Shown here piece by piece: positions 8,563-63,891 of a DNA stretch of 64,000 bases. A program made the translations under genes and the position numbers. The notes below the pieces were generated by a model that saw only the letters and a list, made by a program, of their open reading frames with translations, ran no database searches and was not told the origin of the DNA. Positions within the stretch are counted from its first letter, which is position 1. Each line of letters opens with the position of its first letter. Location of the stretch: assembly GCF_001641085.1 (NCBI RefSeq), contig NZ_LXIE01000012.1, forward strand, positions 1 to 64,000, read 5' to 3'. The stretch is from Aequorivita soesokkakensis (GTDB lineage Bacteria; Bacteroidota; Bacteroidia; Flavobacteriales; Flavobacteriaceae).

Positions 8563-8594
8563 TACTTTACAATAAACAATAAATTTTACAGACT

Positions 8595-9812: not shown

Positions 9813-9831
9813 AACAATATTTTATAAATAA

Positions 9832-9861
9832 AAAAATCCCGACGAAATCGTCAGGATTTTT
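9832..9861. terminator. bidirectional terminator between folC and tRNA-Val
   Basis: AAAAATCC plus GACG pairs with CGTC plus GGATTTTT around an AAAT loop, with one C/A mismatch. A-rich and T-rich flanks allow use in both directions, for folC (+) and the tRNA (-). Confidence 0.75.
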
Positions 9862-9867
9862 AAAAAC

Positions 9868-9945
9868 TGGTGGGCGATGAGGGGTTCGAACCCCCGACCC
9901 CCTCGGTGTAAACGAGGTGCTCTGAACCAGCTGAGCTAATCGCCC
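9868..9945 (-). tRNA. tRNA-Val (anticodon TAC)
   Basis: On the minus strand a 75-nt cloverleaf plus an encoded CCA: acceptor GGGCGAT pairs with ATCGCCC, followed by discriminator A and CCA. The anticodon arm is CTCGT-TTACACC-GAG-like with TAC at 34-36, and the T arm has GGTTCGAACCC. The gene reads toward folC and shares its terminator. Confidence 0.97.
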
Positions 9946-10093
9946 TTCTTGTTAGCGGTTGCAAATATAAGTTACTTTTTAATTTCACCAAACATTTATT
10001 TGAAATAATTATTGGAAAGAACTATTTGTGGCTTGTGGAAGAATTAAATAAGTTTAACTTTGACTACTTCACCTTTTAAAAACCAAACAGCAC

Positions 10094-11074
10094 TTGAATC
10101 CATTATTTAAAAATATAATTGTAAATGTTGTAAAAAACCGTCAAAAGCATCGGAAACCATCCCAGATTTCCGAACCTTTTGAAAAGCGGGTGAAAAATCT
10201 TGAGGTTGAAGTAACCCACGAAATATGGGATTTTTTCTATCTACTTTTGGGCGTAGTTTCCGCTTCTTTTGGCTTGCGAGGTTTTTTGATGCCCAACAGT
10301 TTTATTGATGGTGGCGTCACGGGGGTTTCGTTGATGGTAAATGAACTGGTAGGTATTTCCTTTCCGCTATTGCTAGTGTGTTTCAACTTGCCGTTTTTGG
10401 CCCTGGCTTATTTTTCTATTGGAAAGCGGTTTGCCGTAAAAAGCGTTTTGGGAATTGTGCTTTTGTCAATTGCCGTAGCCTTGATTCCCTATCCTCTTAT
10501 TACTGATGATCAAATTTTAGTAGCCGCTTTTGGAGGGCTTTTCTTAGGGTTGGGCATCGGGCTCGCTATTCGTGGGGGTGCAATTATAGATGGCACAGAA
10601 GTTTTGGCAATTTTTATCAGCCGGAAAACTAGTCTTACTGTCGGGAATGTAATTATGATTTTTAACGTAATTATATTTATAACCGCCGCCTATTTTCTTT
10701 CCACGGAAATTGCACTTTATGCAATTCTTACATATTTCGCGGCTTCAAAAACGGTTGATTTTGTAATTGACGGTATTGAGGAGTTTATGGGGATTACCAT
10801 TATTTCTGAAAAAAATGAAGAAATACGTATGGCGATCATTGAAAAAATGGGCCGTGGCTGCACTATTTTTAAAGCTGAAAATGGGTTTGCAAAAGAAGGA
10901 GAAACACGAAAACCCGTTGATGTTGTTTATACGGTAATAACTCGTTTGGAAATGAGCAAGCTTCAAACAGAAGTGGATAAAATAGATAGCCAAGCATTCA
11001 TAATTATGACTTCCGTTAAAGATGCCAAGGGCGGAATGATAAAAAAGAAACCTATCAAAAAATTTGACAAATAA
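10094..11074 (+). CDS. YitT family membrane protein (DUF161/DUF2179)
   Basis: Predicted inner-membrane protein of unknown transport role. Of 326 residues, about 1-45 are polar, 50-210 contain five to six hydrophobic helices including GFLMPNSFIDGGVTGVSL and a GLGIGLAIRGGAIIDGTEVLA stretch, and about 220-310 form the soluble DUF2179 domain that often ends YitT proteins. The start is TTG at 10094; no ATG precedes the first helix, so a shorter form is unlikely. It lies between the two tRNA-Val genes. Function is not known beyond the family assignment. Confidence 0.85.
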   Translation: MNPLFKNIIVNVVKNRQKHRKPSQISEPFEKRVKNLEVEVTHEIWDFFYLLLGVVSASFGLRGFLMPNSFIDGGVTGVSLMVNELVGISFPLLLVCFNLPFLALAYFSIGKRFAVKSVLGIVLLSIAVALIPYPLITDDQILVAAFGGLFLGLGIGLAIRGGAIIDGTEVLAIFISRKTSLTVGNVIMIFNVIIFITAAYFLSTEIALYAILTYFAASKTVDFVIDGIEEFMGITIISEKNEEIRMAIIEKMGRGCTIFKAENGFAKEGETRKPVDVVYTVITRLEMSKLQTEVDKIDSQAFIIMTSVKDAKGGMIKKKPIKKFDK

Positions 11075-11120
11075 TCTTTTGCTTGGAATTTGTTATTTGT
11101 ATTTTGGAGCTTTAAAATTA

Positions 11121-11195
11121 GGGTCATTAACTCAGTTGGTTTAGAGTGTCACGTCGACAACGTGGAAGTCGTTGGTTCGAATCCAACATGGCCCA
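11121..11195 (+). tRNA. tRNA-Val (anticodon GAC)
   Basis: A 75-nt cloverleaf: acceptor GGGTCAT with ATGGCCC, T stem GTTGG/CCAAC with loop TTCGAAT, and anticodon stem TCACG/CGTGG enclosing loop TCGACAA. This places GAC at 34-36 and, unusually, C at position 33. CCA is not encoded. A partial copy of the 3' half lies 60 bases downstream. Confidence 0.85.
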
Positions 11196-11226
11196 CAATT
11201 GGATTCTATCTATTTTTTAAAAGAGG

Positions 11227-11267
11227 GTTGGTTCCCCCAAGGTTTCGGGGCAACATGGCCCACAATT
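11227..11267 (+). pseudogene. partial tRNA-Val 3' copy split by a palindrome
   Basis: GTTGGTTC and CAACATGGCCCACAATT repeat the T arm, acceptor 3' strand and flank of the tRNA at 11171-11200. Between them the copy has CCCC-AAGGTTTC-GGGG in place of the T-loop bases. No 5' half is present, so this is not a functional tRNA. Confidence 0.7.
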
Positions 11268-11274
11268 TTTGTTA

Positions 11275-12555
11275 TTAGAAAAGATCCAATATTCTTTCCA
11301 GCGCCATTCCTCGTGAAGCTTTTATAAGGATTGTTGCGTGTTTGGGGGAATTGCTTTCAAGTTCTTTTTTTAAGTCCTCAAAAGTTTCAAATTTATTGAT
11401 ATGGGCAGAATTGTTTACTGTTTTAAAGAAATTGCTTCCCACCAAAAAAACCTTTCCAAATTGGTTTTCTACTAAATAATCCACGATGTTTTGGTGCTCA
11501 ATTTCGGCTTCTTTGCCCAGTTCAAACATATCCCCCAAAAACATTATTTTGTTTTCGCCCTTTGCCTGTTTAAAGTTTTGCAAAGCGGCGAGCATACTTG
11601 TTGGATTGGCATTATAAGCATCCATTAAAATAGTGTTCGTGCCTTTTGAAATTAATTGCGACCGATTATTTGAAGGAATATAGCCCTCAATTCCGGCTTT
11701 TATTTTTTCCTTCGAAACCTTAAAATAAGCTCCAATAGCAATTGCGGCTGCAAGATTTGCAAAATTGTAAGCTCCCACTAAATTACTTTGTATTTCAGTT
11801 CCTTCAAATTCAATTAAAAGATGGTGGGTGCTGTCTATTAATTTAATGTCGAAATCACTTTGTGGTGTTCCAAAAGTGATTCTTTCAATTCCTTCTGAAT
11901 TGGCCAATTGTTTTGGATCGTTTGCATTGACAAATATTTTCCTACCATGTTTTTTTAAAAATTGGTAAAGTTCGGTTTTGCCTTGCACAACGCCTTCAAG
12001 ACTTCCGAAACCTTCTAAATGGGCTTTTCCGAAATTGGTGATATATCCATAATCAGGTTCGGCTATTTCGCTCAGCATTTTTATTTCCCCCAAATGGTTG
12101 GCGCCCATTTCCACAATTCCCAGTTGTGTTTCTTTCTTCATGGCAAGCAAAGTCAAAGGAACGCCAATATGGTTGTTTAAATTTCCCTGGGTGGCAACGG
12201 TCTTGAATTTTTGTGAAAGCACAGCATTTATAAGTTCTTTAGAAGTAGTTTTTCCGTTGCTTCCCGTTAACGAAATTATAGGGAGGCCAAGAAACTCCCT
12301 GTGAAAACGAGCTAGTTGTTGAAGAGTAACCAAAACATTTTCAACCAAAATTGTCTCACCCGTAGTTTTATGAAAAGCTTCTTCATCAACAATAACTTTG
12401 AAAGCACCTTTGTCCAAAGCTTCCTGCGCAAAAAGATTTCCGTTGAAATTTTCGCCCTTTAAGGCAAAGAAAATACAGTTTTCGAATATTTTTCGGGTGT
12501 CGATACTAACGCCGCTACAGTTTAAAAACTCTTTGTGGAGGGAAGGTATATTCAT
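11275..12555 (-). CDS. murF: UDP-N-acetylmuramoyl-tripeptide--D-alanyl-D-alanine ligase
   Basis: Cytoplasmic Mur ligase that adds D-Ala-D-Ala to UDP-MurNAc-tripeptide, the last soluble step of the peptidoglycan precursor. The 426-residue protein has the N-terminal uridine-binding domain with GVSIDTRK, the ATP P-loop SLTGSNGKTTSKE near 94-106, and the MGANHLGEI motif of the central domain, then MDAYNANPTSM in the C-terminal domain. Downstream of gldJ on the same strand but separated from it by a terminator-like hairpin. This murF-gldJ-porU-porV neighbourhood is recurrent in flavobacteria. Confidence 0.95.
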   Translation of the reverse strand: MNIPSLHKEFLNCSGVSIDTRKIFENCIFFALKGENFNGNLFAQEALDKGAFKVIVDEEAFHKTTGETILVENVLVTLQQLARFHREFLGLPIISLTGSNGKTTSKELINAVLSQKFKTVATQGNLNNHIGVPLTLLAMKKETQLGIVEMGANHLGEIKMLSEIAEPDYGYITNFGKAHLEGFGSLEGVVQGKTELYQFLKKHGRKIFVNANDPKQLANSEGIERITFGTPQSDFDIKLIDSTHHLLIEFEGTEIQSNLVGAYNFANLAAAIAIGAYFKVSKEKIKAGIEGYIPSNNRSQLISKGTNTILMDAYNANPTSMLAALQNFKQAKGENKIMFLGDMFELGKEAEIEHQNIVDYLVENQFGKVFLVGSNFFKTVNNSAHINKFETFEDLKKELESNSPKHATILIKASRGMALERILDLF

Positions 12556-12570
12556 AAAATAAATATACTA

Positions 12571-12611
12571 AAAAACCCTCCGAAGCTGAATACTAAGGAG
12601 GGCTGTTTTTT
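12571..12611 (-). terminator. gldJ terminator made of a CCCTCC palindrome
   Basis: On the minus strand, AGCCCTCC pairs with GGAGGGT followed by a T run, right after the gldJ stop. The loop (TTAGTATTCAGCTTC) includes AGCTTC, linking it to the CTCCGAAGCTT palindrome family in pdhC. Confidence 0.7.
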
Positions 12612-12625
12612 ATAGATTTTTATTT

Positions 12626-14302
12626 TTAGTTACGAGGGCGTTTTCCTTTTTTGGATTTTGAACCAACGCGGCTCATTGCGCATCTAAACCCAATATAGTC
12701 TGTTGCCATATCTTGCGGGAAATAACGTCTTTGAGCTGGATCTAACCAATAATCACGGTCTCTCCACGAGCCTCCTTTGTAAACACGAACCTCATTGTCT
12801 ACCAAAGTGGTTCTGTTTGAAGACTTATCATATTGTCTATCTAGTTCTCCTAAGCTGTCTGCGTAAACTTTTTGAACCGGAGAGTTGTACATACGGTGTG
12901 ATCCATCGCCGCTTTCACTTTCATCATCTGCAAAAGATTGATAGTAACGGGAGGAGCGTTTGTCGCCATCTCTGTAATCGCGGTTATCGCTTTCAGAGAA
13001 GTTTGTGCGTAAATAAGTTTCGTTTTCGTCAACTGGTACCTGAAGTATTTCCCCTGGTAAGTTACGTGCTATAATTTTTCCATTGCTCAAAGTGTCATAG
13101 ATTATGGAATCCATAGTAACTATTTTCACTTTTCCATCTTCGCCAATGGCGTTTTTGGTATAAACGTTTCCACGGTAATAGTTGAAATCGTTAAAGTCAT
13201 CATCAACTATTGGACGATAAACATCAGCTACCCATTCTGCAACGTTTCCAGCCATATCATACAATCCAAAATCGTTAGGTTCGTATGATTTTACTTGGGC
13301 TGTAATATCGGCACCATCATCACTCCATCCGGCTATTCCACCGTAATCACCATCACCTTGTTTAAAGTTTGCCATTTGGTCACCGCGAGATCTTCTTTTT
13401 CCAGAACGAGTGTATTGACCTTCCCAAGGATATTTTTTCTTTCCTCTATAAACGTTGTAGTTACGAAGCCCAACCAAACCTAGTGCAGCATATTCCCATT
13501 CAGCCTCAGTTGGAAGCCTGTAACCTGGCATCAAAATTCCATCTTTACGTTGAACGTATAGGTTTGTGCTGTCTTTACTTCTTTTGGCAATAGATTCAGA
13601 TTTTTTACCGCCACGGGTTATTGAATCGTTTCCGCCGTAAACCATTGTTGGGGCGTTTAAATAGGTTTCGGTATTAAAGGTTTCGCCTGGTTCTACTTCA
13701 TAACGAGCATTACGAGCCGTAACTCCTGCTGTTTCCAAAGCCATTTCATTAACACGATCCGTTCTCCAGTTGCTGAACTCTACGGCTTGTACCCAACTAA
13801 CACCCACAACAGGATATTCTGCATATGCGGGGTGACGAAGGTAGTTGTTGGTCATTACTTCGTTGAAACCTAAACGGTTTCTCCAGACCAAAGTGTCGGG
13901 CACTGCACCTTCATATATTCTTCTATAATTTTCGTCAGATGGAGGGAAAACTTTCTTTAACCAGTCTAAGTATTCAAGATACATTAGGTTGGTTACTTCG
14001 GTTTCATCCATATAAAATGACTGAACGTGTTGTTGGTTTGGGGAATTGTTCCAGTCATGCATTGGGTCATCCTGAACTCTTCCCATTGTGAAAGTTCCGC
14101 CTTCAACAAAAACAAGACCTGGTCCTGTTTCTTGTTCTTTGGTTTTAGGATCATACTGAAAACCACCTTCTTTGGCGTTCATCTTCCAACCAGTGGCACG
14201 GGAACTGTTTTTATAGTCCCTAGTTTTGTTGCAGCCAACTAGTAGTGAGGCCACTATTACAGTAACAAATAGCTTTAATGCTAGGTTTTTTCTTAACATC
14301 AT
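12626..14302 (-). CDS. gldJ: gliding motility lipoprotein GldJ
   Basis: Outer-membrane-associated lipoprotein required for gliding and for stability of the other Gld/T9SS motor parts. The 558-residue protein starts with a lipoprotein signal ending LLVGC (Cys24). It then has a formylglycine-generating-enzyme-like (SUMF1) fold seen as FVEGGTFTMG, ETEVTNLMYLEYLDWL, YRLPTEAEWEYAALG, NVAEWVADVY and ending RGFRCAMSRV-like GFRCAMSRV. It is divergent from porU, the classical flavobacterial arrangement. It likely acts structurally rather than as an enzyme. Confidence 0.95.
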   Translation of the reverse strand: MMLRKNLALKLFVTVIVASLLVGCNKTRDYKNSSRATGWKMNAKEGGFQYDPKTKEQETGPGLVFVEGGTFTMGRVQDDPMHDWNNSPNQQHVQSFYMDETEVTNLMYLEYLDWLKKVFPPSDENYRRIYEGAVPDTLVWRNRLGFNEVMTNNYLRHPAYAEYPVVGVSWVQAVEFSNWRTDRVNEMALETAGVTARNARYEVEPGETFNTETYLNAPTMVYGGNDSITRGGKKSESIAKRSKDSTNLYVQRKDGILMPGYRLPTEAEWEYAALGLVGLRNYNVYRGKKKYPWEGQYTRSGKRRSRGDQMANFKQGDGDYGGIAGWSDDGADITAQVKSYEPNDFGLYDMAGNVAEWVADVYRPIVDDDFNDFNYYRGNVYTKNAIGEDGKVKIVTMDSIIYDTLSNGKIIARNLPGEILQVPVDENETYLRTNFSESDNRDYRDGDKRSSRYYQSFADDESESGDGSHRMYNSPVQKVYADSLGELDRQYDKSSNRTTLVDNEVRVYKGGSWRDRDYWLDPAQRRYFPQDMATDYIGFRCAMSRVGSKSKKGKRPRN

Positions 14303-48974: not shown

Positions 48975-49062
48975 GTAAAATGTGAGTAGGTGAATGGGTG
49001 AGTTTGTGAGTATGTGAATTCCTGAAACTTAAGACGTGAAACGTGAATCGTGAGACGTTATT
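48975..49062. repeat. GTGAGT/GTGAAACGTGA short-period repeats
   Basis: GTGAGTAGGTGAATGGGTGAGTTTGTGAGT-type words up to about 49018, then GACGTGAAACGTGAATCGTGAGACG. The first is the reverse complement of the TTCACAAACTCAC words at 51115 and 63176; the second resembles 53720-53750. Confidence 0.55.
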
Positions 49063-51000: not shown

Positions 51001-51347
51001 ATGTACTATTAAAAAGCTGTAAGCTTAAAACCCAAATGCTTCGCCCCCTTTTAAGGGGGAGAGCCGCCACTGGCGGAGAGGGGGTGCTTCTTAAGCGTAA
51101 ATCAGCACGTTCATCACTCATTCACAAACTCACTCATTCACAAACTCACAAACTCACATATTCACCCATTCAAAAAAATTACAGCCTTCGGCATACAGTA
51201 GTAGATGTGACCTTTAAACAATTTAAATGTAGGAAAAACCACACACTCAAGTAGCGTTGGGCTCCTCTGAACGACCCCATTAACGGCGATTTTAATTTTA
51301 TCGTTTAGGTTTCCTCTCAATGACCATATGGATGATGGATTGCACCG
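51001..51347. repeat. repeat-rich intergenic region
   Basis: About 51047-51087 is a compound palindrome with CCCCCTTTTAAGGGGG and a nested GCCGCCACTGGCGG part. About 51115-51172 holds TTCACAAACTCAC words. The remainder to 51347 shows nothing recognisable. Small plus-strand frames here are repeat-coded and rejected. Confidence 0.6.
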
Positions 51348-53492: not shown

Positions 53493-54024
53493 GGTATAAG
53501 TGGACCTAAAGTATTTGTGGGCTATATTGAAATAATTTATACCCTTTCTAAGGCCGAATAAAATTAGCGTATTTATTTTATAATTAGCAGGTGGGTGTGA
53601 AAGAAAATTTGGGGTTATGGGGTTTGGTTTTTTTATTCGGACTCTGGAAATCGGTTGCCTCCTATCGACTATCCATCGACTGCCTTCAGGACAAGCTAAC
53701 CTGAGCATGACAAAAAAGTGAGGTGTGAAACGTGAGCTGTGAATCGTATTTCTGTTTGAATATTTATCCTTCGTATCTCGTCGTTCATACCTTGTCGCTC
53801 TGCCACCTCGATACTAATTTGAAACTGCTGTCACATTTCAAATTCACTCGGTCACATTTGATTCGTTTAAATAGATGTTCTTGAAAGTCCATCAGTAGGC
53901 TCTTTGGTCCTTTAAATATCACATATTACTTTGTAAAGTAAGGTTTAGTCCTTACCAATTGTATTGTCCAGCCCTACTTTTTTATTAGGGTTGCCACTTA
54001 ATTTTAGGTAATTGAAATTAGGTT
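53493..54024. other. 532-base intergenic region
   Basis: About 53670-53705 holds a repeat (ATCGACTGCCTTCAGGACAA and AGCTAACC) that also occurs, mutated, inside palindrome element C. About 53722-53752 has GTGAAACGTGAGC words. A GTAAGG-TTTAGT-CCTTAC hairpin lies near 53938-53957. Otherwise nothing recognised; it presumably contains the promoter of the MauE-like gene. Confidence 0.5.
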
Positions 54025-55509
54025 ATGGAAAAGAACGCAGCTAAAGAAAAAAAAGGTACGGTGTTAATAACCGCTATTGCATTCGCGTTTATGCTATTAT
54101 TTATTTATGCAGCAGTAAGTAAGTTACTCGACTTTGAAACTTTTACCGTGCAATTGGCACAATCACCACTTATCAGTGCATACGCAGGGATTGTTGCCTC
54201 GGTCGTTCCAGGTTTGGAAATTCTCATTGCCGTTTTATTGATCCTTCCAAAATATAGAATCCTAGCTCTTTATGCCTCGTTTACCCTAATGGTCATGTTC
54301 ACGGCCTATATCTATATCATACTTAATTTCTCCGACTTTATCCCCTGCTCCTGCGGTGGGGTGCTCGAAAAATTGAGTTGGACGCAACACCTTATTTTTA
54401 ATATTGTTTTCATAATCCTGGCTGGGGTGGCGGTCTTTTTCACTGCGCAAAGAGGTAACAAAAAGACCTTGCTGATGCTTGCCACCCTTGCCATTTTTGG
54501 TGTTGGTACCGTCACGCTGTTGTTTGCCTTTTCGGAAAAGAAGATGCATCGCAACAATGCGTTTCAGCGGAGGTATATCCCACATCCCATAAAACTGAAA
54601 AATGCAGTTGACTTAGAATACAATTCGTTTTACATCGCCGGGCTTACAGATAGTTTAATCTATTTGGGGAATGTTACCGCCCCTTTGAACGTAATGGAGC
54701 TATCCACAGCATTAAAGGCAGAAAACAACTATAGAATCCAATTGGATAAAATGGATCTTCCCTATACAAACATTCAAATAGAAATTAAACCTCCTAATTT
54801 TTATGTGAGCGATGGTACTATACCAATAATTTTACAAGGAAATATTACTTCTTGGAAGGCAAGGACTTTAATGCAAAGCCAATTTTATTTTTCACAAATA
54901 GTTTCATTGGATACAACCCAATTTGTAATGAGAACTATTGATGGCAGGTCAAAACAAAATGTTATAGCCTCATTTTCCTCTACTGCAGATAGCTTGAAAA
55001 TTAATAACGCGCTATTACAAACAGAAGCGAATTCCATCTTTGCTACCGATGGCCAACTACTGTACGATTCTAATTTTGGAAGAATTATTTATGTCTATTA
55101 CTATCGCAATCAGTTCGTTGTTTTTGGTAAATATCTGAATCTAGACTATGTGGGAAAAACAATCGATACCATTTCTAAAGCACAACTTGACATAATACAC
55201 AATGCTAGTACCAACGAGAACAAATTAAAAGGCGATGCCACTATTGTAAATCAGCAGGCTGCCATAGCTGGAGATTATTTATTCATTGTTTCAGACAGGC
55301 TGGGTAAATATGAAGAAGCTAAAGTTTTGCAGCAGGCTTCTATTATGGACGTTTATACTATTTCCAAAAATAGGTATGCGTTTAGCTTTTACATCTATAA
55401 TTATAAAGGGCAAAAGGTTGCTCGCTTTGCTGTCAACAATAACCAACTGCTAGCGCTTATGGGAGATTACCTTGTAAGCTATCAACTTAACGAAACCTAT
55501 TTTAAATGA
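54025..55509 (+). CDS. MauE/DoxX-type redox membrane protein fused to a propeller-like domain
   Basis: 494 residues in two parts. Residues about 14-170 form five helices with the MauE-type motif CSCGG (Cys108, Cys110) after FSDFIP, suggesting electron or disulphide transfer in the inner membrane. Residues about 190-494 lie on the periplasmic side and look like a beta-propeller of the 6-bladed/BF3164 type (IYLGNVTAPLNVM, IFATDGQLLYDSNFGRIIYVYYYRNQFVVFG). The next gene encodes a secreted four-cysteine peptide on the same strand, so a role in that peptide's disulphides is plausible. The substrate of the propeller is unknown. Confidence 0.8.
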   Translation: MEKNAAKEKKGTVLITAIAFAFMLLFIYAAVSKLLDFETFTVQLAQSPLISAYAGIVASVVPGLEILIAVLLILPKYRILALYASFTLMVMFTAYIYIILNFSDFIPCSCGGVLEKLSWTQHLIFNIVFIILAGVAVFFTAQRGNKKTLLMLATLAIFGVGTVTLLFAFSEKKMHRNNAFQRRYIPHPIKLKNAVDLEYNSFYIAGLTDSLIYLGNVTAPLNVMELSTALKAENNYRIQLDKMDLPYTNIQIEIKPPNFYVSDGTIPIILQGNITSWKARTLMQSQFYFSQIVSLDTTQFVMRTIDGRSKQNVIASFSSTADSLKINNALLQTEANSIFATDGQLLYDSNFGRIIYVYYYRNQFVVFGKYLNLDYVGKTIDTISKAQLDIIHNASTNENKLKGDATIVNQQAAIAGDYLFIVSDRLGKYEEAKVLQQASIMDVYTISKNRYAFSFYIYNYKGQKVARFAVNNNQLLALMGDYLVSYQLNETYFK

Positions 55510-55526
55510 TATTAAATTTTAAAGAC

Positions 55527-55540
55527 ATACAGGCCTGTAT
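55527..55540. promoter_or_regulatory. perfect palindrome ATACAGGCCTGTAT
   Basis: Perfect 14-base dyad between the MauE-like and peptide genes, 65 bases before the peptide ATG. It could be an operator (perhaps for the small HTH protein at 63589) or an RNA hairpin uncoupling expression. ACACCTGTAG downstream partly repeats one half. Confidence 0.45.
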
Positions 55541-55604
55541 CAGGAAATAGATCGAACACCTGTAGAAGAAAGTAGATCATAGTATAAATTTAAATTTTAA
55601 AAAC

Positions 55605-55856
55605 ATGAAAAGTTTAAAATTCAAATGGGCATTGCCACTATTGGCAGTAGCCTTTGCCGTAACCGCAGCTTTTGCGAGCCAAAAGACCAATTCTGGAAAT
55701 TTGGTTTTGGAACAGGGGTATGTACATAGTACACAACCCTGTAAAAAATCTATCCAATGTAATAGTTCGGGTAGTATCCAGTGTACATCAGGAGGTAATC
55801 TTGTTTGGGCAATGGATGGTTCCACAGGCTGTGACCGACCGCTGTTTTTTAATTAA
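55605..55856 (+). CDS. small secreted four-cysteine peptide (DUF6520-like)
   Basis: 83-residue protein with a clear Sec signal peptide (about 1-24, ending AAFA) and a mature chain of about 59 residues. Four cysteines lie at 46, 52, 60 and 76 (C-x5-C-x7-C-x15-C). The Ser/Thr/Asn/Gly-rich setting suggests an extracytoplasmic disulphide-bonded peptide. I associate it from memory with the Bacteroidota DUF6520 group, usually next to a MauE gene; a profile search is needed. It is neither a known toxin nor recognisable as a RiPP precursor. It follows MauE by 95 bases and ends at a strong hairpin. Confidence 0.75.
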   Translation: MKSLKFKWALPLLAVAFAVTAAFASQKTNSGNLVLEQGYVHSTQPCKKSIQCNSSGSIQCTSGGNLVWAMDGSTGCDRPLFFN

Positions 55857-55873
55857 AACAGTTTTTCAAAGAA

Positions 55874-55900
55874 GAAATGGCGCCCAAAAGGCGCCATTTC
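55874..55900. terminator. 11-bp perfect hairpin between convergent genes
   Basis: GAAATGGCGCC pairs with GGCGCCATTTC around CAAAA. T runs are weak on both sides, but the placement between the peptide gene and the S9 peptidase stop (55904) fits a bidirectional transcript end. Confidence 0.75.
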
Positions 55901-55903
55901 CAA

Positions 55904-58516
55904 TTATGGCTTTAAGTACCCGGCCAACCAATTTGAAATCCTATTTGTAAGATCTTTTTGATTTTTGGAATTTTGAATGGCATGGGTTTCATTGGGATAG
56001 TTTAAAAAAGTAACATCCTTGCCCAACCTACGTAAGGCCAGATAGAATTCAATATTCTGTCGCACATCAATATGTACATCATCGGCACCAGACCATAGTA
56101 AAATGGGTATGTTTACTTGCTGTACATGGTCCATGGGAGAATTTCTTTTATAGGCTTCAGGGGCATCAAAATAGGAAGTTCCCATACGCCATTGGTGTTC
56201 TTCAAACCACCAACTGTCTGGCCGGCCATCGTACCCACCTACCGTAAGGTAAAAGCTCCGAAAATCCGTTACTCCCGCCCCAGAGACGATCGCTGCAAAC
56301 ATATTCGTCTGCGTCGCAATAAAGGCTGCTTCATAGCCCCCAAAGGAATGTCCCTGCAGCGCCATTCGGTCCTTATCCACCATTTCAGTTTTTAAAACAC
56401 TTTCCACCGCAGCTTTTACACATTGCAGGGCTGATATTCCGGGATCGCCCAACTTATAGACTATATCTGGATAAAGCACAAAATAACCCTGCCCTGTATA
56501 CACCTTTGGGTTAAACCCGTCCCCATTGTTCATCGTTGGGGTTATATAGTTATAGAACCTGTCCGACAGACGCTCATAAATATGGACTATCATTGGATAT
56601 TGTACGCCTTCCACATAACCGTCGGGATACATGAGTATGCCCTGTAAATCCCGGCCATCAAAACTTTTATAGCTGATAAGCTCCTGCCTCGGACTCACAA
56701 AGTCCTTGTGTTGTAGGTTGCTTTCATATAACAGGGCTTCCTTTCCATCTTCCAGAAAATAGATCCTTCTTGGGATGTCAAACGATTCTTCCTGTACAAT
56801 ATAACTTCCTGCTTCCTTTGCCTGTTTAAGGTTATCAACCTTGGTATCTTTGGTAAATAGGGGAGTAATGCCTTTTTTTGAATTCCAGCTATAGTAGCCC
56901 GAGTGTTTTGGGCCATTGGCTTCCAAAAGGATGTCTTTTTCAGTATCCAATATATCCAGCGTAAATCGTTCGAACCGCTGAAAAGGGTATTCTTCATATT
57001 GTTTTCTATAAAACCTAAAAACTGTTTTATCCTCGCGCCCATTGGTAATACGATGAAATTCCCTCCCATCAACGGAAACTTTCCAAATATCAAATTCGTC
57101 ATAAATATAAACCCATTTATTATCTGGGCTCCAACCCGCGAAACCATAGGGCCAAACGGCATTCGATGAAGAGTGGTCTGTGGTATCCAAATCAAAAGGG
57201 AGATTAACTGATACGTCTGTATGGCTATCCATTGGTATAGTGTACACCCACCACTTTTTATTTTTATAGTAAGCAATGTACTTTCCGTTGGGTGAAGGGT
57301 ATTTGTTTTTAAAATCAATAGTATGTTTTTCGACCATACGTTTTTTATCTTTCGTATTCAGATCCATAACATAAAAATCGGCATCCCCTTCATATTTGAA
57401 CTGTGGTTCATATTGCTTCTTGTCAAAAAGAAGTGCATAATGCTCATTGGGTAAAAGATAGGCGTTCGGCAATTTTTCAGTGGCAATCTGCAGTAGCTCT
57501 TTTTGCTCAGGCTTCCACTGCATTAGCCAAGGCCCCATCGCAGGATCATTGAACCGCAATTGTTGTGGTACGATCCACGGGTCGTCCCCCTTCCAAACCT
57601 GCACCTTGTTTTTTAAGGTATCGATATTACGCTCCAAATAACTTTTTGGGCGCACATAAAAAAATAGCCGCTCCCCATCTGCCGCATAAAAGATTTTACT
57701 TCCTCCTTCCATATAGGTATTCATAGGAAATCCTTTTTGAGAGGGAGGGTGCAGGGTCAGTAGTTTAGGGAGGCTCCCATTTTGAAATTCATGTAGTAAG
57801 GTTCTAGGAGGGTTGCCGGTAGTATCCACTTTAGTTTCCATAAAAGCAAGGCGGCTACTTTTTTCGTTCCAAGCCAAACGGGAAAATGTGCTATCATCAC
57901 TCTTTAGGATAACACTTTTTTGTAGGGATTGGACATCCATCAATACGATCGAATTTTTTTCACCCGTGACAAAAGTAATTGCTGCCCATTTCCCATTTGG
58001 TGAAAATTTGAACCAGCTAACATGTTCCAATTGGGTTGTTTTTCCAGTTTCAAGATCAACAAGAGAGAATCGGTTGTTCGCATCCAAAACACCGGCATAA
58101 TCTCCCGCATCAGAAAAATAGAAGAGCTCCAAATCAGGGAAGTTCTTGCTTTCATTGCGCTCCAAATTTATTAATTGCAGCGTCCTATCGGAATGATAAC
58201 TATATAGCCACTTGGAATTCGGACTAAATTCATATTCTACGGCCTCCTTATATTTCATGACTTTCTTGTTATGGGTGTTTAGTATCATCAAGGTATCAGT
58301 AATCCCAGGATAGTTGAGCCTCCAGGCGGCCCATTTGCCATCATTGGAAAGTATGGGAGCGTACAGATTGCTCCATTTGGAATATTCCTCTTGCGGTATG
58401 CTTTTCTTGCCAACAGCCTGTCCAAAACTGGAGCAGACTGTCGCAAACAAGAAAATGACCACAACTAATTGGCTAATTCTAGGCGTATGGGCACAAATCA
58501 TTTTTTGTATGGCCAT
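55904..58516 (-). CDS. S9 (prolyl oligopeptidase) family serine peptidase
   Basis: Exported peptidase of 870 residues from the ATG at 58516, with a signal-anchor-like segment ending in SSFGQ (about 14-33). Residues 40-590 form a seven-bladed-propeller-like domain with WD-type strands (KWAAWRLNYPG, WSPDNKWVYIYD). The C-terminal alpha/beta hydrolase has nucleophile Ser in GHSFGGYEA, Asp in WSGADDVHID and His in NETHAI, the expected order. The ATG lies one base after the SusD stop, so SusD and the peptidase are coupled. It probably cuts peptides captured by SusCD. Confidence 0.9.
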   Translation of the reverse strand: MAIQKMICAHTPRISQLVVVIFLFATVCSSFGQAVGKKSIPQEEYSKWSNLYAPILSNDGKWAAWRLNYPGITDTLMILNTHNKKVMKYKEAVEYEFSPNSKWLYSYHSDRTLQLINLERNESKNFPDLELFYFSDAGDYAGVLDANNRFSLVDLETGKTTQLEHVSWFKFSPNGKWAAITFVTGEKNSIVLMDVQSLQKSVILKSDDSTFSRLAWNEKSSRLAFMETKVDTTGNPPRTLLHEFQNGSLPKLLTLHPPSQKGFPMNTYMEGGSKIFYAADGERLFFYVRPKSYLERNIDTLKNKVQVWKGDDPWIVPQQLRFNDPAMGPWLMQWKPEQKELLQIATEKLPNAYLLPNEHYALLFDKKQYEPQFKYEGDADFYVMDLNTKDKKRMVEKHTIDFKNKYPSPNGKYIAYYKNKKWWVYTIPMDSHTDVSVNLPFDLDTTDHSSSNAVWPYGFAGWSPDNKWVYIYDEFDIWKVSVDGREFHRITNGREDKTVFRFYRKQYEEYPFQRFERFTLDILDTEKDILLEANGPKHSGYYSWNSKKGITPLFTKDTKVDNLKQAKEAGSYIVQEESFDIPRRIYFLEDGKEALLYESNLQHKDFVSPRQELISYKSFDGRDLQGILMYPDGYVEGVQYPMIVHIYERLSDRFYNYITPTMNNGDGFNPKVYTGQGYFVLYPDIVYKLGDPGISALQCVKAAVESVLKTEMVDKDRMALQGHSFGGYEAAFIATQTNMFAAIVSGAGVTDFRSFYLTVGGYDGRPDSWWFEEHQWRMGTSYFDAPEAYKRNSPMDHVQQVNIPILLWSGADDVHIDVRQNIEFYLALRRLGKDVTFLNYPNETHAIQNSKNQKDLTNRISNWLAGYLKP

Positions 58517-58517
58517 A

Positions 58518-59918
58518 TTAATATCCAGGGTTTTGTGGTTCAAGGTTTGGGTTGAGGTTCAATTCCATTTCCGGGATCGGAAATAGTACGTCCGTAGCCT
58601 TCCAATTCGGCTTGATGGGACCAATAACCTCAGCTGCCCTTTGCGTGCGCCTTAGGTCGAACCAGCGATGGCCCTGCTCGGTGAAAAGCTCATGCCTGCG
58701 TTCATTTTCTAAAGCTAATTTTAAAGATTCTACGGTATTTGCAACCGTTGGATCAAGACCCGCGCGACTTCTGATGCGGTTTATATCTTCTTTTGCTCCA
58801 GAAAGGTCACCAAGGTATAGCCGGGCTTCGGCACGGATTAAAAACTGTTCCGCCAATCGTAGCAACACTGAATATTCATCCCCGCTTCCTTCACGGGTTT
58901 TATATTTATTGGGGTAGAAATATGTTTCATTTCCCACGGCAACCTCCCCAATCCATTGAAGTCTTCTACTGTCCTCGGCTTCAAAAGAAGCAACCAATTC
59001 CGGATTCAGCGCCACAAAGGCTGGCGTTTCTTCAAAAATAAAAGTTAGGGCTTCCCAAGTAGGGTTTCCAGCTTCTGGCTTGAGTTGCCAGATCGTGGAT
59101 GGGTTGGTCGCAGTAAATACCATTTCGGTTGTATCTCCTAGGTTTAAGGAACCGTCATTAATGAGTTCAGAGGCAACAGCCGAGGCAGCAGTGTAATTTT
59201 GTTGGTATAAATAAGTCCGAGCTAGTAGCGCGTTTGCAGCTTGTGCTGTGGGTCTAGTGTGTTCGTAGTTTTCTTGACCTGTCAGCCATGTTTTTGCTTC
59301 CAACAGGTCTTGAACCAAGATTGGATATACCTCATTTTCGGGCAGGCGTTTCACGTCTTTATTAATTCTGTAATCTGTAGTGGTGATATAGGGTATGGGT
59401 CCAAAAAGCTGTAAGAGGTGAAAGTGGAGGTATGCCCTTATAAACAATGCTTCCCCCATAAACGCATTCTTTTCCATTTCTGAGAGCTCCTTGGAATTCT
59501 GTACACCTTCCAATATACTGTTGGTGGCGTAGACAAGGTTATAAGTATCATTCCAAATGGATGCCACCTCCGTATTGGATGCTAATATGGAATGCCGATA
59601 AAATGTTTCGGCATCTTCCCCGGGCACCCCGTAATAATCAAGTTCATCGGCATATAAACCCAGTAGCACATTTAAACCGTTCGTCTGCCCGGTAATGAGC
59701 ACATTGTCGCGTAATTTTGAGTAGATGTTCGCAAAGGCTGCATGTACCGAAGCGGCATCATTAAATACTGCGGTGCCCATTAACTCTGATTGTGGAAAAT
59801 CTACTTCGGTAAAACTATCACAAGCGGTTATTGTTAGACAGGTACCCAGTAAAATGGGATACATGTTTAAGGCACGCATCGCTCTAAATTTCTTTAGTAT
59901 TTTTAATATATTTTTCAT
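58518..59918 (-). CDS. RagB/SusD family nutrient-binding lipoprotein
   Basis: Surface lipoprotein of 466 residues that caps the SusC transporter and binds the cargo. Lipoprotein signal ends LTITAC (Cys33). The SusD fold is seen in helical repeats (MEKNAFMGEALFIRAYLHFHLLQLFGPIPYITT) and C-terminal NRIRSRAGLDP, ENERRHELFTEQGHRWFDLRR. The ATG at 59918 is preferred over a TTG at 59927. It directly follows SusC with a 12-base gap. Confidence 0.92.
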   Translation of the reverse strand: MKNILKILKKFRAMRALNMYPILLGTCLTITACDSFTEVDFPQSELMGTAVFNDAASVHAAFANIYSKLRDNVLITGQTNGLNVLLGLYADELDYYGVPGEDAETFYRHSILASNTEVASIWNDTYNLVYATNSILEGVQNSKELSEMEKNAFMGEALFIRAYLHFHLLQLFGPIPYITTTDYRINKDVKRLPENEVYPILVQDLLEAKTWLTGQENYEHTRPTAQAANALLARTYLYQQNYTAASAVASELINDGSLNLGDTTEMVFTATNPSTIWQLKPEAGNPTWEALTFIFEETPAFVALNPELVASFEAEDSRRLQWIGEVAVGNETYFYPNKYKTREGSGDEYSVLLRLAEQFLIRAEARLYLGDLSGAKEDINRIRSRAGLDPTVANTVESLKLALENERRHELFTEQGHRWFDLRRTQRAAEVIGPIKPNWKATDVLFPIPEMELNLNPNLEPQNPGY

Positions 59919-59930
59919 CGGTTGCAAGTT

Positions 59931-62900
59931 TTATAATGTTAGTTGGAATCCCATGGTGAGCTTTCGCATAGGAGGTAAAAACCCCGTGAGTTGTTCTGGG
60001 TCGCCACTGTTGAATTTTGTAAATAGAAGTAGGTTTTCTCCCTGTAAGTATATTTTACAATTGAGGCTTCCTTCCCTGCGTTGTGGCAGGCTATAGGTCA
60101 AGGAAGCATTGCGAAGGCGGACAAAGGAGGCATCTGTTATAGATGCATTACTGAACATATATCTTGAATGGGCAATTAGGGCATCAAAATTGTAGCCCGC
60201 GGTAAATAATTGGGTCTCAGATTGATCCCCTTCGTTTTGCCATTGATCCGTAACAAAGTCGGGTTGGTTTGCCATTTCCCCAGGCGATGCACTTCCCAAT
60301 ACATAGTTATAACCGTCACGCTTGGTAAATTGAAAGAGGAAGTTGAGTTCCAGATTTTTATAGGAAATACGATTATTTATACCGCCGTACCATTTGGGTG
60401 CGGTATCCGCAATGTACTGCCTATCCTCAGGGGCACTAATTTCACCATCCCCATTATAATCCTCAAATTGATAGACTCCCGTTTCGGGATCAACACCCGT
60501 AACATGGTACAGTTTTTTGATATTCAAGGACTGTCCCACAACATATTGGTTGGCATAAGTGGAATTTTCCAAATTCGGAAATGCAATAAGCTTGTTTTTT
60601 GGTACGGATAGATTGATACCAGTGTCCCAATTCCAGTCCTTGGTTTTAACAGTGTGGGTATTAAGGCTAAATTCAAGACCGCTATTTTCTACCACAGCCC
60701 CTAAGTTTGCTTGTATTGATGGAAAACCGGTAGTGCCGGGTAGGGGGAGACCCACCAATTGGTTGGAGGATCGGTTATTGTAATATTCAAAAACAAGATT
60801 TATCCGATCCCTAAAAAAGTCAAGGTCAAGCCCCCCACTAAACTTTTTGTTTGTTTCCCATCCAAAATCTGGATTAAAGATCCGTGTTGGTTGAAGGCCG
60901 CTCACATCATCATAAAGCGTTCCTGTGGAACTATAGGTTTCCAAATATTGGTAGTTACCTATTTGGTCGTTCCCCGTTATGCCATAGCTGGCGCGAAGTT
61001 TTCCTAAACTTAAAAATGAAGCCTTATTTTTGATAAACGCCTCTTCTGAAAATAGCCAAGCAGCTCCAACGGCCCCAAAGTTGGCAAACCGTTTCCCGTC
61101 GCCGAAGCGGCTAGAACCATCCCTTCGCCCCGTAAGGTTTATGATGTATTTATTGGCCAGGGTGTAATTTATGCGTCCAAAAAAAGCTTGGTATTTATAT
61201 TCCGTCAGTGCATCCCGGTTGACGCTAAGTGTATTGGCCGCGGCCAAATTATAAATAAGGCTATTGTTTGCAAAGCCTCTCGCGAAATGCGATAGCACAT
61301 CATCGGTCTGTTTTTTATAGCTAGCGCCCACTAGCACATCCAATTTCGACTTTTCAAGGGTTTTATTCCACTTTATCTGGGGTTCAACCAACCAAGATTC
61401 CTTTTGTGCCCTATTGGTGTAAATGGAGGAGTAGCTACTGCTTAAGCCATACGATGGATCGTACTTGGTATTTGGGCTGGTTCGCGACTCATCTAGCCCA
61501 GTTGTGGTATAACCCATATTCGTTAGTAAAGTAAGCTCGGGAAACACCCTATAGGATAGACGTGCGTTGGTAATGAGATTCTTTCTATCGGTTAGGTATT
61601 TTCCCTCCAATTCAGCCAGCGGATTGGCGAAAGTGCCGTTCTCAAAATTCAGGTTACCTTCTGAATCGTACAGTTGGGGGGCATTGGGCGCTAAAAACCT
61701 CGTTAGCTGGGTAAGGTCAAGGCCCGGAAGGTCGTTTTGCTCCACCGCATAATTTGCTGAAAAGTAGAGCTGAAATTTGTCGTCGGTGCTTGTATGGTCT
61801 AGATTGGCGTGTACCGAAAGTCTTTTATAATTAAAATCCTTTGGAAATACCGTGGTTTCTTTGTGATAACCACCACTTAAAAGAAAACGGGTGTTCCCAT
61901 TTCCTCCCGAAACAGTTGCCTGTGCATTTGTTAAGTAGGCAGTTCCACCTATGAGTTCTTTTTGCCAATCGGTATATCGGTTGGGGTCCCAGGTGCCGTT
62001 TACGTCATAGGCATCTTCGGGATATTCGTTAAAACCGTCATTGGCAAAAGCTTCCCTTCGCATTTTTAAGTACTGGTCCGTTTTCATATAATTTATAGTA
62101 TTAGCCACCTGTGCCATGCCTGTATACGTACTTAAACTGAAGGCCGTCTTACCATCTTTTCCTTTTTTGGTAGTTATCAGTATCACTCCATTGGCGCCAC
62201 GTGAACCGTAGATTGCGGTAGCATCGGCATCTTTTAATACTTCAATACTTGCAATGTCCTGCGGATTTAAAAGGCTTAAGGGACTTATATTACCGCCAGG
62301 AATTGTAGTGGCACCTACAGTAGAGAAACCCATAGTTTGGGAATCGTAGGGAATTCCATCAATGATGTAAAGGGGATCATTTCCTGCAGCAATGCTGTTT
62401 TGCCCCCTAATACGTACCTCGTAACCCCCGCTTGCAAGTCCGGTGGTCTGCACAATATTCACCCCTGCCATTCTGCCCTGCATAGCGGCAAGAGGATTGG
62501 AGACAGGCTGGTTCTCAATTTCGGCAGCGGTAATGCGAGCGATACTTCCTGTTTTCTCCCTATCGGAAACTTTGTAGTAGCCGGCATTGATAACCACAGC
62601 ATCCAAAGCCTGCGCATCCACCTCCATAACAACATTAAAAACAATGTCTCCATCACTACCACTGCGACTGCGACTGAAACTGAGACTGCGACTGCCACTG
62701 AGACTGCCAACTGAAACCTCCTGCGTTTTATAGCCCACATAGGTAAACACCAACGTATCATTTGCGGAGGCGCTAACGGAGTACCGCCCTTCCAGATCGC
62801 TAATGCTCCCCCGGGCGCTGTTCTTTACCAAGACGTTAACGCCACTAAGAGGGTCCGCGCCTGAGGTAATAATGCCACTGATTGTTTTTTGTGGCTGGTT

Positions 62901-62984
62901 CTGTGAAAAAGTAGGGGAGTTGTAGGTTAGGAAAAGGGCAAAAGATAGTGCATAGGCATAGCTTCGCCTGTAATTATTTTTCAT
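59931..62984 (-). CDS. SusC/RagA family TonB-linked outer-membrane transporter
   Basis: Outer-membrane importer of 1017 residues, powered by TonB/ExbBD. Signal peptide ends FSQNQ. The carboxypeptidase-D-like N-domain (about 33-120; ISGIITSGADPLSGVNVLVKN) is followed by a plug (about 130-250; AVVINAGYYKVSDREKTGSIARI, IRGQNSI, GANGVILITTKKGK) and a barrel ending in LTMGFQLTL. A dipeptide run of Ser-X (about residues 93-110) is encoded by nine in-phase hexamers. The partner SusD and S9 peptidase suggest peptide rather than glycan uptake. No glycoside hydrolase is nearby. Confidence 0.93.
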   Translation of the reverse strand: MKNNYRRSYAYALSFALFLTYNSPTFSQNQPQKTISGIITSGADPLSGVNVLVKNSARGSISDLEGRYSVSASANDTLVFTYVGYKTQEVSVGSLSGSRSLSFSRSRSGSDGDIVFNVVMEVDAQALDAVVINAGYYKVSDREKTGSIARITAAEIENQPVSNPLAAMQGRMAGVNIVQTTGLASGGYEVRIRGQNSIAAGNDPLYIIDGIPYDSQTMGFSTVGATTIPGGNISPLSLLNPQDIASIEVLKDADATAIYGSRGANGVILITTKKGKDGKTAFSLSTYTGMAQVANTINYMKTDQYLKMRREAFANDGFNEYPEDAYDVNGTWDPNRYTDWQKELIGGTAYLTNAQATVSGGNGNTRFLLSGGYHKETTVFPKDFNYKRLSVHANLDHTSTDDKFQLYFSANYAVEQNDLPGLDLTQLTRFLAPNAPQLYDSEGNLNFENGTFANPLAELEGKYLTDRKNLITNARLSYRVFPELTLLTNMGYTTTGLDESRTSPNTKYDPSYGLSSSYSSIYTNRAQKESWLVEPQIKWNKTLEKSKLDVLVGASYKKQTDDVLSHFARGFANNSLIYNLAAANTLSVNRDALTEYKYQAFFGRINYTLANKYIINLTGRRDGSSRFGDGKRFANFGAVGAAWLFSEEAFIKNKASFLSLGKLRASYGITGNDQIGNYQYLETYSSTGTLYDDVSGLQPTRIFNPDFGWETNKKFSGGLDLDFFRDRINLVFEYYNNRSSNQLVGLPLPGTTGFPSIQANLGAVVENSGLEFSLNTHTVKTKDWNWDTGINLSVPKNKLIAFPNLENSTYANQYVVGQSLNIKKLYHVTGVDPETGVYQFEDYNGDGEISAPEDRQYIADTAPKWYGGINNRISYKNLELNFLFQFTKRDGYNYVLGSASPGEMANQPDFVTDQWQNEGDQSETQLFTAGYNFDALIAHSRYMFSNASITDASFVRLRNASLTYSLPQRREGSLNCKIYLQGENLLLFTKFNSGDPEQLTGFLPPMRKLTMGFQLTL
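62655..62708. repeat. in-phase hexamer array inside the SusC coding sequence
   Basis: Nine ACTGNN hexamers (ACTACC, ACTGCG, ACTGCG, ACTGAA, ACTGAG, ACTGCG, ACTGCC, ACTGAG, ACTGCC) on the plus strand, read on the minus strand as a Ser-X run in the N-domain. The unit length preserves frame. Confidence 0.8.
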
Positions 62985-63255
62985 AATTTTGCATCAGTTA
63001 AGTGTTACACATTATTTTAACTACTGGCCTGCTCCAACGGTCGTCGAAAACTGGGAGCGGGTCATTTTTTTGGTAGTGAGATGTGAGAAGTGAGACGGAT
63101 TACATCCCCATAGCCCCCTTCGAAGGGGGGACTGGTTGATCACTTCAATTCATCATTCACCATTCAAAATCTCGCAAATCCGCAAACTCACAAATTCACA
63201 AACTCACAAATTCACAAACTCACAAATTCACCATTCACGAAAAAACGCTTTAAAA
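62985..63255. repeat. SusC upstream region with hairpin and repeats
   Basis: CCTGCTCC pairs with GGGAGCGGG (about 63031-63063), followed on the plus strand by a T run. Then come an AGCCCCCTTCGAAGGGGGG palindrome near 63109-63127, and TTCACAAACTCACAAA words at about 63176-63236. The SusC promoter was not identified. Confidence 0.55.
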
Positions 63256-63267
63256 GAAAGTTGAGAA

Positions 63268-63465
63268 GAAAAAACCGACCAAGCCCCAAACAAAAAGGAC
63301 GCAGGTCTCAACTTATGCCATTGGGGTACTGGTATACCTTGCAACAATAAGTGAGAAGCCCACGTCCCGGGTCGTGAGCATCCATGCTTATCATCTCGTT
63401 GCAAAAATTACCAGTTTTCAATGGCGAGATTCAAAGCGAATGCTTCTAATGTTTTGCTTTTAGAA
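63268..63465 (-). ncRNA. candidate structured RNA with a long rod-like stem
   Basis: A 109-base rod (63317-63425) is built of nested stems: GCCATTG/CAATGGC, ACTGGTA/TACCAGT, TTGCAAC/GTTGCAA, ATAAG/CTTAT and CACG/CGTG around TCCCGGGT, separated by 3-4-base symmetric loops. On the minus strand a 5' hairpin (CTTCTAA/TTAGAAG) and a final T run (GGTCGGTTTTTT) frame an RNA of about 200 bases, with a -7 box just upstream. The ends and strand are inferred. The known families I compared (SRP, tmRNA, RNase P, TPP, cobalamin) do not match; 6S RNA has a similar length and cannot be excluded. Confidence 0.5.
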
Positions 63466-63471
63466 GAGTCG

Positions 63472-63479
63472 CAAATATA
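63472..63479 (-). promoter_or_regulatory. putative -7 promoter box of the RNA candidate
   Basis: Minus-strand TATATTTG, a TAnnTTTG match, a few bases before the first hairpin of the candidate RNA. No -33 element at the usual spacing. Confidence 0.4.
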
Positions 63480-63515
63480 TGTTATTAAGACAAATATAAT
63501 AAAATATTTTAATCA

Positions 63516-63529
63516 TTCGCTTTAGCGAA
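63516..63529. promoter_or_regulatory. TTCGCT-TT-AGCGAA palindrome
   Basis: Perfect dyad 60 bases before the small HTH gene. Its CATTCGCTTT half occurs inverted at 63433-63442 in the RNA candidate. Possible operator or hairpin. Confidence 0.45.
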
Positions 63530-63588
63530 CAGATATTTTTTGATAATTCAGTTGATTTGGGAGGCATTACTAATGTAATAGGTGTAAG

Positions 63589-63891
63589 ATGGGTGAGATA
63601 CAAAAAGGCGAGTTTAATACCAATAACGCTTTAGTTAATAAATTTCTGTGTGCTTTTATTTATGATAAATTCATAAAGAACCCAAAAAATTCTGATGGTG
63701 CCGTAATCAGTCAGAACCAATATGCTATACTTTGTGGATTATCTTCTTCCACTCTTACCAAATTAAAACTACCGGAAGGTTATGATATACCTATCTCCAC
63801 TATTTATTCTATATGTAGGCACGAAAAATATTCTTTACAAAAATTTTTTAAAGAATTTGAAAAAAAATATGGAGTTAATATTCCTCAGTAG
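63589..63891 (+). CDS. small helix-turn-helix-like protein, function unknown
   Basis: 100-residue protein with no signal or membrane segment. Residues 45-68 (ISQNQYAILCGLSSSTLTKLKLPE) have the pattern of an XRE/Cro-type helix-turn-helix; the flanks are Lys/Phe/Tyr rich. I do not recognise the family with certainty. Its position beside the SusC-peptidase-peptide block and the palindrome at 63516 suggest a local regulator, but this is inference. Its strong A/T bias and high Lys content differ from the block on its left. Confidence 0.65.
   Translation: MGEIQKGEFNTNNALVNKFLCAFIYDKFIKNPKNSDGAVISQNQYAILCGLSSSTLTKLKLPEGYDIPISTIYSICRHEKYSLQKFFKEFEKKYGVNIPQ

Follow-up and report, generated by a model that had tools for sequence, protein, structure and literature searches.

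Genome comparison shows that a block at positions 54025-63891 of a 64,000-nucleotide stretch of Aequorivita soesokkakensis DNA (this whole stretch is the window referred to below) follows a conserved convergent layout. It joins a MauE-type redox membrane protein and a small cysteine-bearing peptide of the family DUF6520 to an importer, SusC and SusD, whose adjoining slot, fixed in place, holds a peptidase (sometimes a thioredoxin). Ahead of the importer genes lies a structured leader RNA that follows a promoter-like motif and has a terminator-like end. In the window, the genes for the MauE-propeller protein and the DUF6520 peptide converge with SusC-SusD-S9. A cysteine peptide and MauE facing an importer that is coupled to a peptidase or thiol protein suggest one molecule that is produced and recovered. 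We favor, with slightly less than even confidence, a single module that would produce and take back a small disulphide peptide. An initial annotation of this DNA, made from its letters by a model, had proposed a disulphide peptide recovered by SusCD and an S9 peptidase, and the comparisons reported here partly support that interpretation.

The MauE domain (PF07291, E 5e-31, 108.1 bits versus a cut-off of 27) covers residues 13-138 of the first protein, and its CSCGG motif, which reads PCSCGG in the window translation, is invariant across an alignment of 29 MauE-propeller sequences. The remainder of the protein was modelled by AlphaFold2 (AF2) from 29 homologues as a beta-propeller (predicted local distance difference test 85.6, predicted template modelling score (pTM) 0.68). 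Foldseek matched this model to propellers (best E 1.9e-8), in agreement with the annotated fusion of a MauE-type CSCGG protein to a propeller-like domain, while a search of solved structures by sequence gave two matches only, at E 0.1. In genomes G046 and G048 two adjoining genes encode the MauE part and the propeller separately. The window peptide belongs to DUF6520 (PF20130, 39.9 bits versus a cut-off of 25.4), and its 83 residues place cysteines at 46, 52, 60 and 76, exactly the C-x5-C-x7-C-x15-C spacing first noticed. Over 44 peptides of the family two cysteines are invariant, and the mean column identity is 30% versus 57% for the MauE-propeller; the peptide gave a weak fold model (pTM 0.42) with no structural match at E 0.001. 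The S9 enzyme (PF00326, E 1.5e-28) has GHSFGG as its serine motif at 731, with candidates for the Asp motif at 819 and the His motif at 853, and is putatively exported, with a signal-like N-terminus judged by eye. It was ruled out as a lasso isopeptidase proper, scoring 97.7 bits against NF033523 under an equivalog cut-off of 400. SusD matches PF14322 and PF07980, and SusC matches TIGR04056 at 708.9 bits versus a cut-off of 368.25, with RagA and SusC homologues among its relatives in the PDB. RagA takes up peptides. A family profile search found no glycoside hydrolase among the block's six proteins, as had been annotated.

We searched 99 relatives and a phylum sample of 296 genomes; all counts given here are uncorrected for relatedness, except the SusD-tree comparison. 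PF20130 was found in 27 of the relatives (25 over the cut-off) and in 23 genomes of the phylum sample (18 over the cut-off). Within the genus, 34 DUF6520 matches exceeded the cut-off, the window's own included, and 29 of the other 33 were accompanied by MauE-propeller, peptide, S9, SusD and SusC in the window's convergent order; these 29 include L046, whose peptide was missed by phmmer and found by reading the locus. Among the remaining four, L038 and L079 run off the contig, in L076 the peptide and S9 lie about 7.5 kb apart and the stretch examined contains no SusCD, and L061 (G012:C40) has none of the five block genes. L043 (G023) is almost identical to the window block (peptide 100%, S9 96%, SusC 94% and SusD 92% identical).

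For a wider test, a DNA pattern derived from the RNA was run against the genome collection and matched at least 119 stretches, 80 of which made named loci, including ones in Flavobacterium, Chryseobacterium, Maribacter, Zunongwangia, Niabella, Sphingobacterium and Sunxiuqinia. Fifty of these 80 loci supplied 49 genomes, which are therefore selected for the RNA. They contained 81 matches to PF20130 and 149 to R1, a covariance model of the RNA, and PF07291 occurred in 49/49 among the matches listed. R1 lay within 15 kb of 50 of the 81 DUF6520 matches, convergent in 50/50, at a median distance of 7,560 bases (range 6,289-14,178). As module-type MauE we kept, among the matches listed, 81 whose open frames were close to 150 or 500 amino acids long, the rest being dropped by frame length or weak score; among those listed, module-type MauE stood within 3 kb of 65/81 DUF6520 matches and DUF6520 within 3 kb of 61/81 module-type MauE genes. 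The 50 RNA-linked DUF6520 loci, all from other genomes (a contig end cut two of the regions short, and another region begins at one), had SusC in 50/50, SusD in 50/50, MauE in 45 and the propeller in 33, and 14 of their 31 genomes held more than one module. In the samples not selected for the RNA, it was found within 15.5 kb of 29/42 over-cut-off DUF6520 matches among the relatives and 13/23 in the phylum sample, all convergent; the window's own matches count in both samples, which have a few genomes in common. DUF6520 and the RNA occurred together in 14 of the 296 genomes, DUF6520 alone in 4 and the RNA alone in 17 (Fisher p 1.9e-12, ignoring relatedness). These counts are the reverse of a peptide family living mostly apart from MauE, SusCD and S9, the pattern that the initial annotation had named as contrary to its proposal.

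The gene behind SusD is exchangeable. In the 48 loci whose slot gene was found and scanned, the family counts were S9 25, M16 10, met-zincin 9, thioredoxin 2 and amidohydrolase 2, a peptidase (S9, M16 or met-zincin) occupying the slot in 44. In other genera this gene is thioredoxin-type in L056, L057, L060, L070 and L073, M16 in L065, L066 and L067, and a DUF4953/DUF5117 met-zincin in L069. The annotated S9 thus holds as a block member in the window and in 25/48 slots, but not as a fixed part, since the other four families substitute for it. That slot genes are mostly of general peptidase families, and that SusC resembles RagA and other structurally known SusC homologues, would also suit an importer that takes up foreign proteins or peptides as nutrients, with DUF6520 as a helper (redox carrier or small subunit) kept oxidised or reduced by MauE; excerpts of PMC9723704 propose SusCD plus a peptidase for peptide uptake in Flavobacterium psychrophilum. 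We consider such an importer possible but rather unlikely: the peptide is diverse while the MauE-propeller is conserved, as might be expected of a product and its maker, and DUF6520 does not accompany SusCD generally. We infer that the peptide is the SusCD ligand, a role not much likelier than that of a helper.

Cysteine number goes with the propeller. Within the 50 RNA-linked loci, peptides have four cysteines in 33/33 propeller loci and two in 15/15 loci without it, plus L244 and L247 by eye, and a profile built from the propeller was present in 33/33 four-cysteine and 0/17 two-cysteine loci. The same split exists inside the single genome G430 (L258 versus L252 and L257). Beyond the window's genus, the relatives first compared comprised six with four cysteines and the propeller, five with two cysteines and none, and one exception to the cysteine rule, L073, which has two peptides (3508-3783 and 9900-10190), one with two cysteines beside a propeller and the other with five. 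In 13/17 two-cysteine loci, judged by eye, genes of AraC size and DUF7793 size stand behind the peptide and MauE; Pfam identified a PAS/AraC-type protein in both L253 and L242, and L253 also matched DUF7793.

The RNA, annotated as a structured candidate (z -3.6 for the single window sequence), was examined by covariation. Alignment of 27 copies showed a conserved 150-nucleotide core upstream of SusC, and in these copies 94.6% of cells pair in hand-placed helices, compared with 87.9% in shuffles and 32-48% when the helices are slid. R1, built from these copies and helices, scores the window RNA at 139.5 bits. Across 81 R1 matches in the named loci, in an alignment fitted to the R1 structure, that structure is 97.2% paired, with 17/30 pairs changed on both sides and 0/500 shuffles as high. 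Helices outside R1 (the pseudoknot UCUC/GAGA, a GGU/ACC stem enclosing the loop that pairs in P2, and helix ALT) are 96.9% paired in the 81 copies, with 11/15 pairs changed on both sides, 0/500 shuffles as high and 45-70% pairing when slid. Judged by this strong covariation, the candidate is a real, structured and pseudoknotted leader. At the gathering score, Rfam gave no match for the RNA in the window, L043, L084, L078, L070, L065, L072, L053 or ten weak-copy loci. The RNA at 2152-2301 of L072 is about 91% identical (blastn) to window 63297-63446, while the MauE-propeller proteins are 49% identical, and RNA kinship therefore does not track protein kinship.

Hairpin P4 and helix ALT use a common strand and are thus mutually exclusive. 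ALT alone is 98.7% paired in the 27 copies, with a covariation score reached by 0/500 shuffles. A U-tract (at least 4 T in 6) follows ALT in 102 of 103 copies, whereas a control position 40 nucleotides further along has one in 47 of 103; with at least 5 T the numbers are 95 versus 19. Upstream of the core, 52 of 54 copies (the 27 aligned and 27 of the 80 named loci) have TAnnTTTG, mostly 30-34 nucleotides ahead, which we take to be the Bacteroidota -7 promoter motif; a simple promoter/terminator scan was uninformative. The leader has the predicted make-up of an element that ends or continues transcription.

With the U-tract present in nearly every copy, the RNA might instead be a separate small RNA that ends there and acts on other transcripts, like FopS in Bacteroides, which according to excerpts of PMC11697453 represses SusC translation. 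This is unlikely in our judgement, because most examined copies lie on the same strand as, and ahead of, SusC or sigma-factor genes. RNA control of SusC, inferred here, would be common to both systems; as described in the same excerpts, FopS has a simple fold, a single-stranded 5' part plus a terminator hairpin, and acts in trans, unlike the large pseudoknotted leader without an Rfam match.

Several results weigh against the favored single module. In the RNA-selected genomes, 31/81 DUF6520 matches have no RNA within 15 kb and, among the matches listed, 16/81 have no module-type MauE within 3 kb. Some loci without an RNA match are contig ends, yet L052, L054 and L081 have SusC with upstream room and no RNA match. 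Of the 114 RNA copies above 100 bits, 58 lie near DUF6520 or MauE and 56 near neither (MauE among the matches listed), and the RNA is therefore better described as a broader leader of SusCD-type operons. ALT taken alone is weaker by other measures in the 27 copies, its doubly changed pairs being equalled by 46/500 shuffles and its pair types by 200/500. In L073 a two-cysteine peptide adjoins a propeller. On a SusD tree of 71 rows, propeller and cysteine number each need only 3 changes, and 2-3 independent pairs, in the same direction in nearly every pairing, cannot reach significance. The association of propeller and cysteines is tight, yet reflects few independent evolutionary changes, and given these and the one exception we assign it less weight; action of MauE on the peptide gains from the match to that reduced extent.

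That the RNA is specific to this block was ruled out, as it also heads operons of extracytoplasmic function (ECF) sigma/FecR-SusCD type, genes for sigma-like proteins of about 258 amino acids and small unknown proteins. R1 matched in 37 of the 99 relatives and in 31 of the 296 phylum-sample genomes (16 of 140 genera); no exact pattern match was found in viral contigs. An opposite-strand open frame of at least 58 amino acids starts 20-320 nucleotides upstream of the RNA in 73 of the 80 named loci (75 having more than 400 nucleotides upstream; chance rate not computed), and HTH_26 was recognized in 47 and HTH_3 in 40 of these 73 at E 0.01. The window's small helix-turn-helix (HTH) protein, also named in the initial annotation, is weak by itself (HTH_26 E 0.16), and its homologue in L118 (phmmer 2.2e-38) matches HTH_26 at E 1.7e-4. 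Among the 67 downstream frames chosen (68 minus one duplicate locus), 42 have a TonB plug and 7 have sigma-70 region 4. In L085, L088 and L089 the RNA precedes an ECF sigma gene, which in L088 is followed by FecR, SusC, SusD and S9. In genome G046 (L097-L100, L117 and L118) it heads genes for proteins of about 80-120 amino acids, that of L099 without a Pfam match. Weak copies (L094, L101, L103, L108 and L111-L116) lie 44-82 nucleotides before other genes, several secreted-type, with no divergent HTH gene recognized, and perhaps represent a wider RNA class.

Under the favored production and recovery of a disulphide peptide, the DUF6520 peptide would be exported and its cysteines oxidised by MauE, with electrons passed to the membrane, and the propeller would serve peptides with two disulphides. 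SusC-SusD would import the mature peptide, or the peptide plus bound cargo, and S9 would open or degrade it in the periplasm. Transcription of SusC-SusD-S9 would begin just ahead of the RNA, which may choose between hairpin P4 (read-through) and helix ALT with the U-tract (termination), and the divergent small HTH protein could act on the shared promoter region. The peptide might also be a signal or antagonist of neighbours rather than a scavenger, its recovery by SusCD and S9 ending or reading the signal. The regulator and DUF7793 genes of the two-cysteine loci and the multiple modules of many genomes are consistent with such a role; the window module lacks a PAS/AraC-type regulator beside MauE and no immunity gene was recognized, and we hold this role to be decidedly doubtful. 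SusCD genes are common in Bacteroidota, but chance adjacency of the block genes is practically refuted by the counts: the gene order is kept across genera and families and DUF6520 is strongly associated with the RNA.

Isopeptidase-type lasso clusters (astexin, sphingopyxin), as excerpted in PMC9266682, likewise combine a small peptide, a TonB-type transporter and an S9 prolyl-oligopeptidase-type enzyme, and a siderophore-like role has been proposed for them there. Their sigma/anti-sigma pairs have counterparts in some RNA-linked relatives, such as L088. The block differs in having a cysteine peptide with MauE rather than a lasso fold, SusCD rather than SusC alone, and an S9 below the NF033523 cut-off. 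Protease-associated import (FusA/FusC, YddB/PqqL; excerpts of PMC6793856) also couples an outer-membrane importer to a periplasmic protease, of the M16 family found in 10/48 slots here; by contrast, the window has S9, M16 occurring only in relatives, together with a SusD partner and its own peptide and MauE. Lasso clusters and FusA/FusC import may, by analogy, offer the nearest worked-out logic for the proposed production and recovery. MauE also adjoins cysteine-rich small precursors in candidate families of ribosomally synthesized and post-translationally modified peptides found by decRiPPter in Streptomyces, where it was proposed as their modifier; these precursors have at least eight cysteines in the excerpts of PMC7794033, unlike the two or four seen here with SusCD and a peptidase. 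Polysaccharide utilization loci share the SusC and SusD pair, and the block has a peptidase and no glycoside hydrolase.

The features of the block are collected in the table. A second stretch kept in many same-genus loci (blastn), window 62985-63069, lies directly ahead of the SusC start and could form a hairpin, judged by eye. Direct repeats had been suggested to mark the borders of the block. Matches of the CACAAACTCACA type, 10 versus 0.22 expected, are not tied to the block: they occur at 63181-63224 and also outside it at 48997-49016 and 51123-51158. At the left edge a single 78% match lies at 53839, and the near-identical L043 has no array at the corresponding place; a border role is therefore unsupported and was rejected.

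Features of the block in the window and the basis of each assignment
Feature	Position	Strand	Basis
MauE-type redox membrane protein (PCSCGG) fused to beta-propeller	54025..55509	+	PF07291, AF2 model, Foldseek, alignment
DUF6520 secreted-type peptide, 83 amino acids, four cysteines	55605..55856	+	PF20130, cysteine positions
S9 prolyl-oligopeptidase-type peptidase	55904..58543	-	PF00326, catalytic motifs
SusD-type lipoprotein	58518..59927	-	PF14322 and PF07980
SusC-type TonB-linked outer membrane transporter	59931..62984	-	TIGR04056; PDB relatives
Core of conserved pseudoknotted leader RNA	63297..63446	-	Alignments, pair counts, covariance model R1
RNA hairpin P4 (GCTCACG / CGTGGGC)	63358..63379	-	Pair counts; coordinates hand-counted
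RNA helix ALT	63297..63367	-	5' strand about 63362-63367, 3' strand 63297-63302; coordinates hand-counted
U-tract directly behind ALT (terminator-like end)	63292..63296	-	Sequence
TAnnTTTG promoter-like motif, 33 nucleotides ahead of RNA core	63472..63479	-	Motif search
Small divergent HTH-type protein	63589..63891	+	Weak Pfam match; homologue in L118

In the open-licence PubMed Central literature, supplements not covered, no earlier description of the block was recognized, and no paper was found there under the name DUF6520. Excerpts of PMC9723704 name structured 5' elements ahead of other genes without listing them, and the leader RNA may already figure in the supplement of that paper. It is tentatively conceivable, if on balance improbable, that a self-peptide economy extends across Bacteroidota, in which modules would secrete their own MauE-matured disulphide peptide, retake it through a private SusCD, either loaded with cargo or as a signal, and open it by an exchangeable peptidase or thiol protein, while the importer operon would be gated by a new switch RNA of pseudoknotted fold, paired with small HTH proteins that are themselves interchangeable. 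From these counts DUF6520, a family of unknown function, gains a stable set of partners and a testable job. Through the folded RNA that precedes SusC in many genera, control of such importers also becomes open to direct test, and on these counts certain SusCD pairs may serve to take back peptides of the cell itself as well as food.

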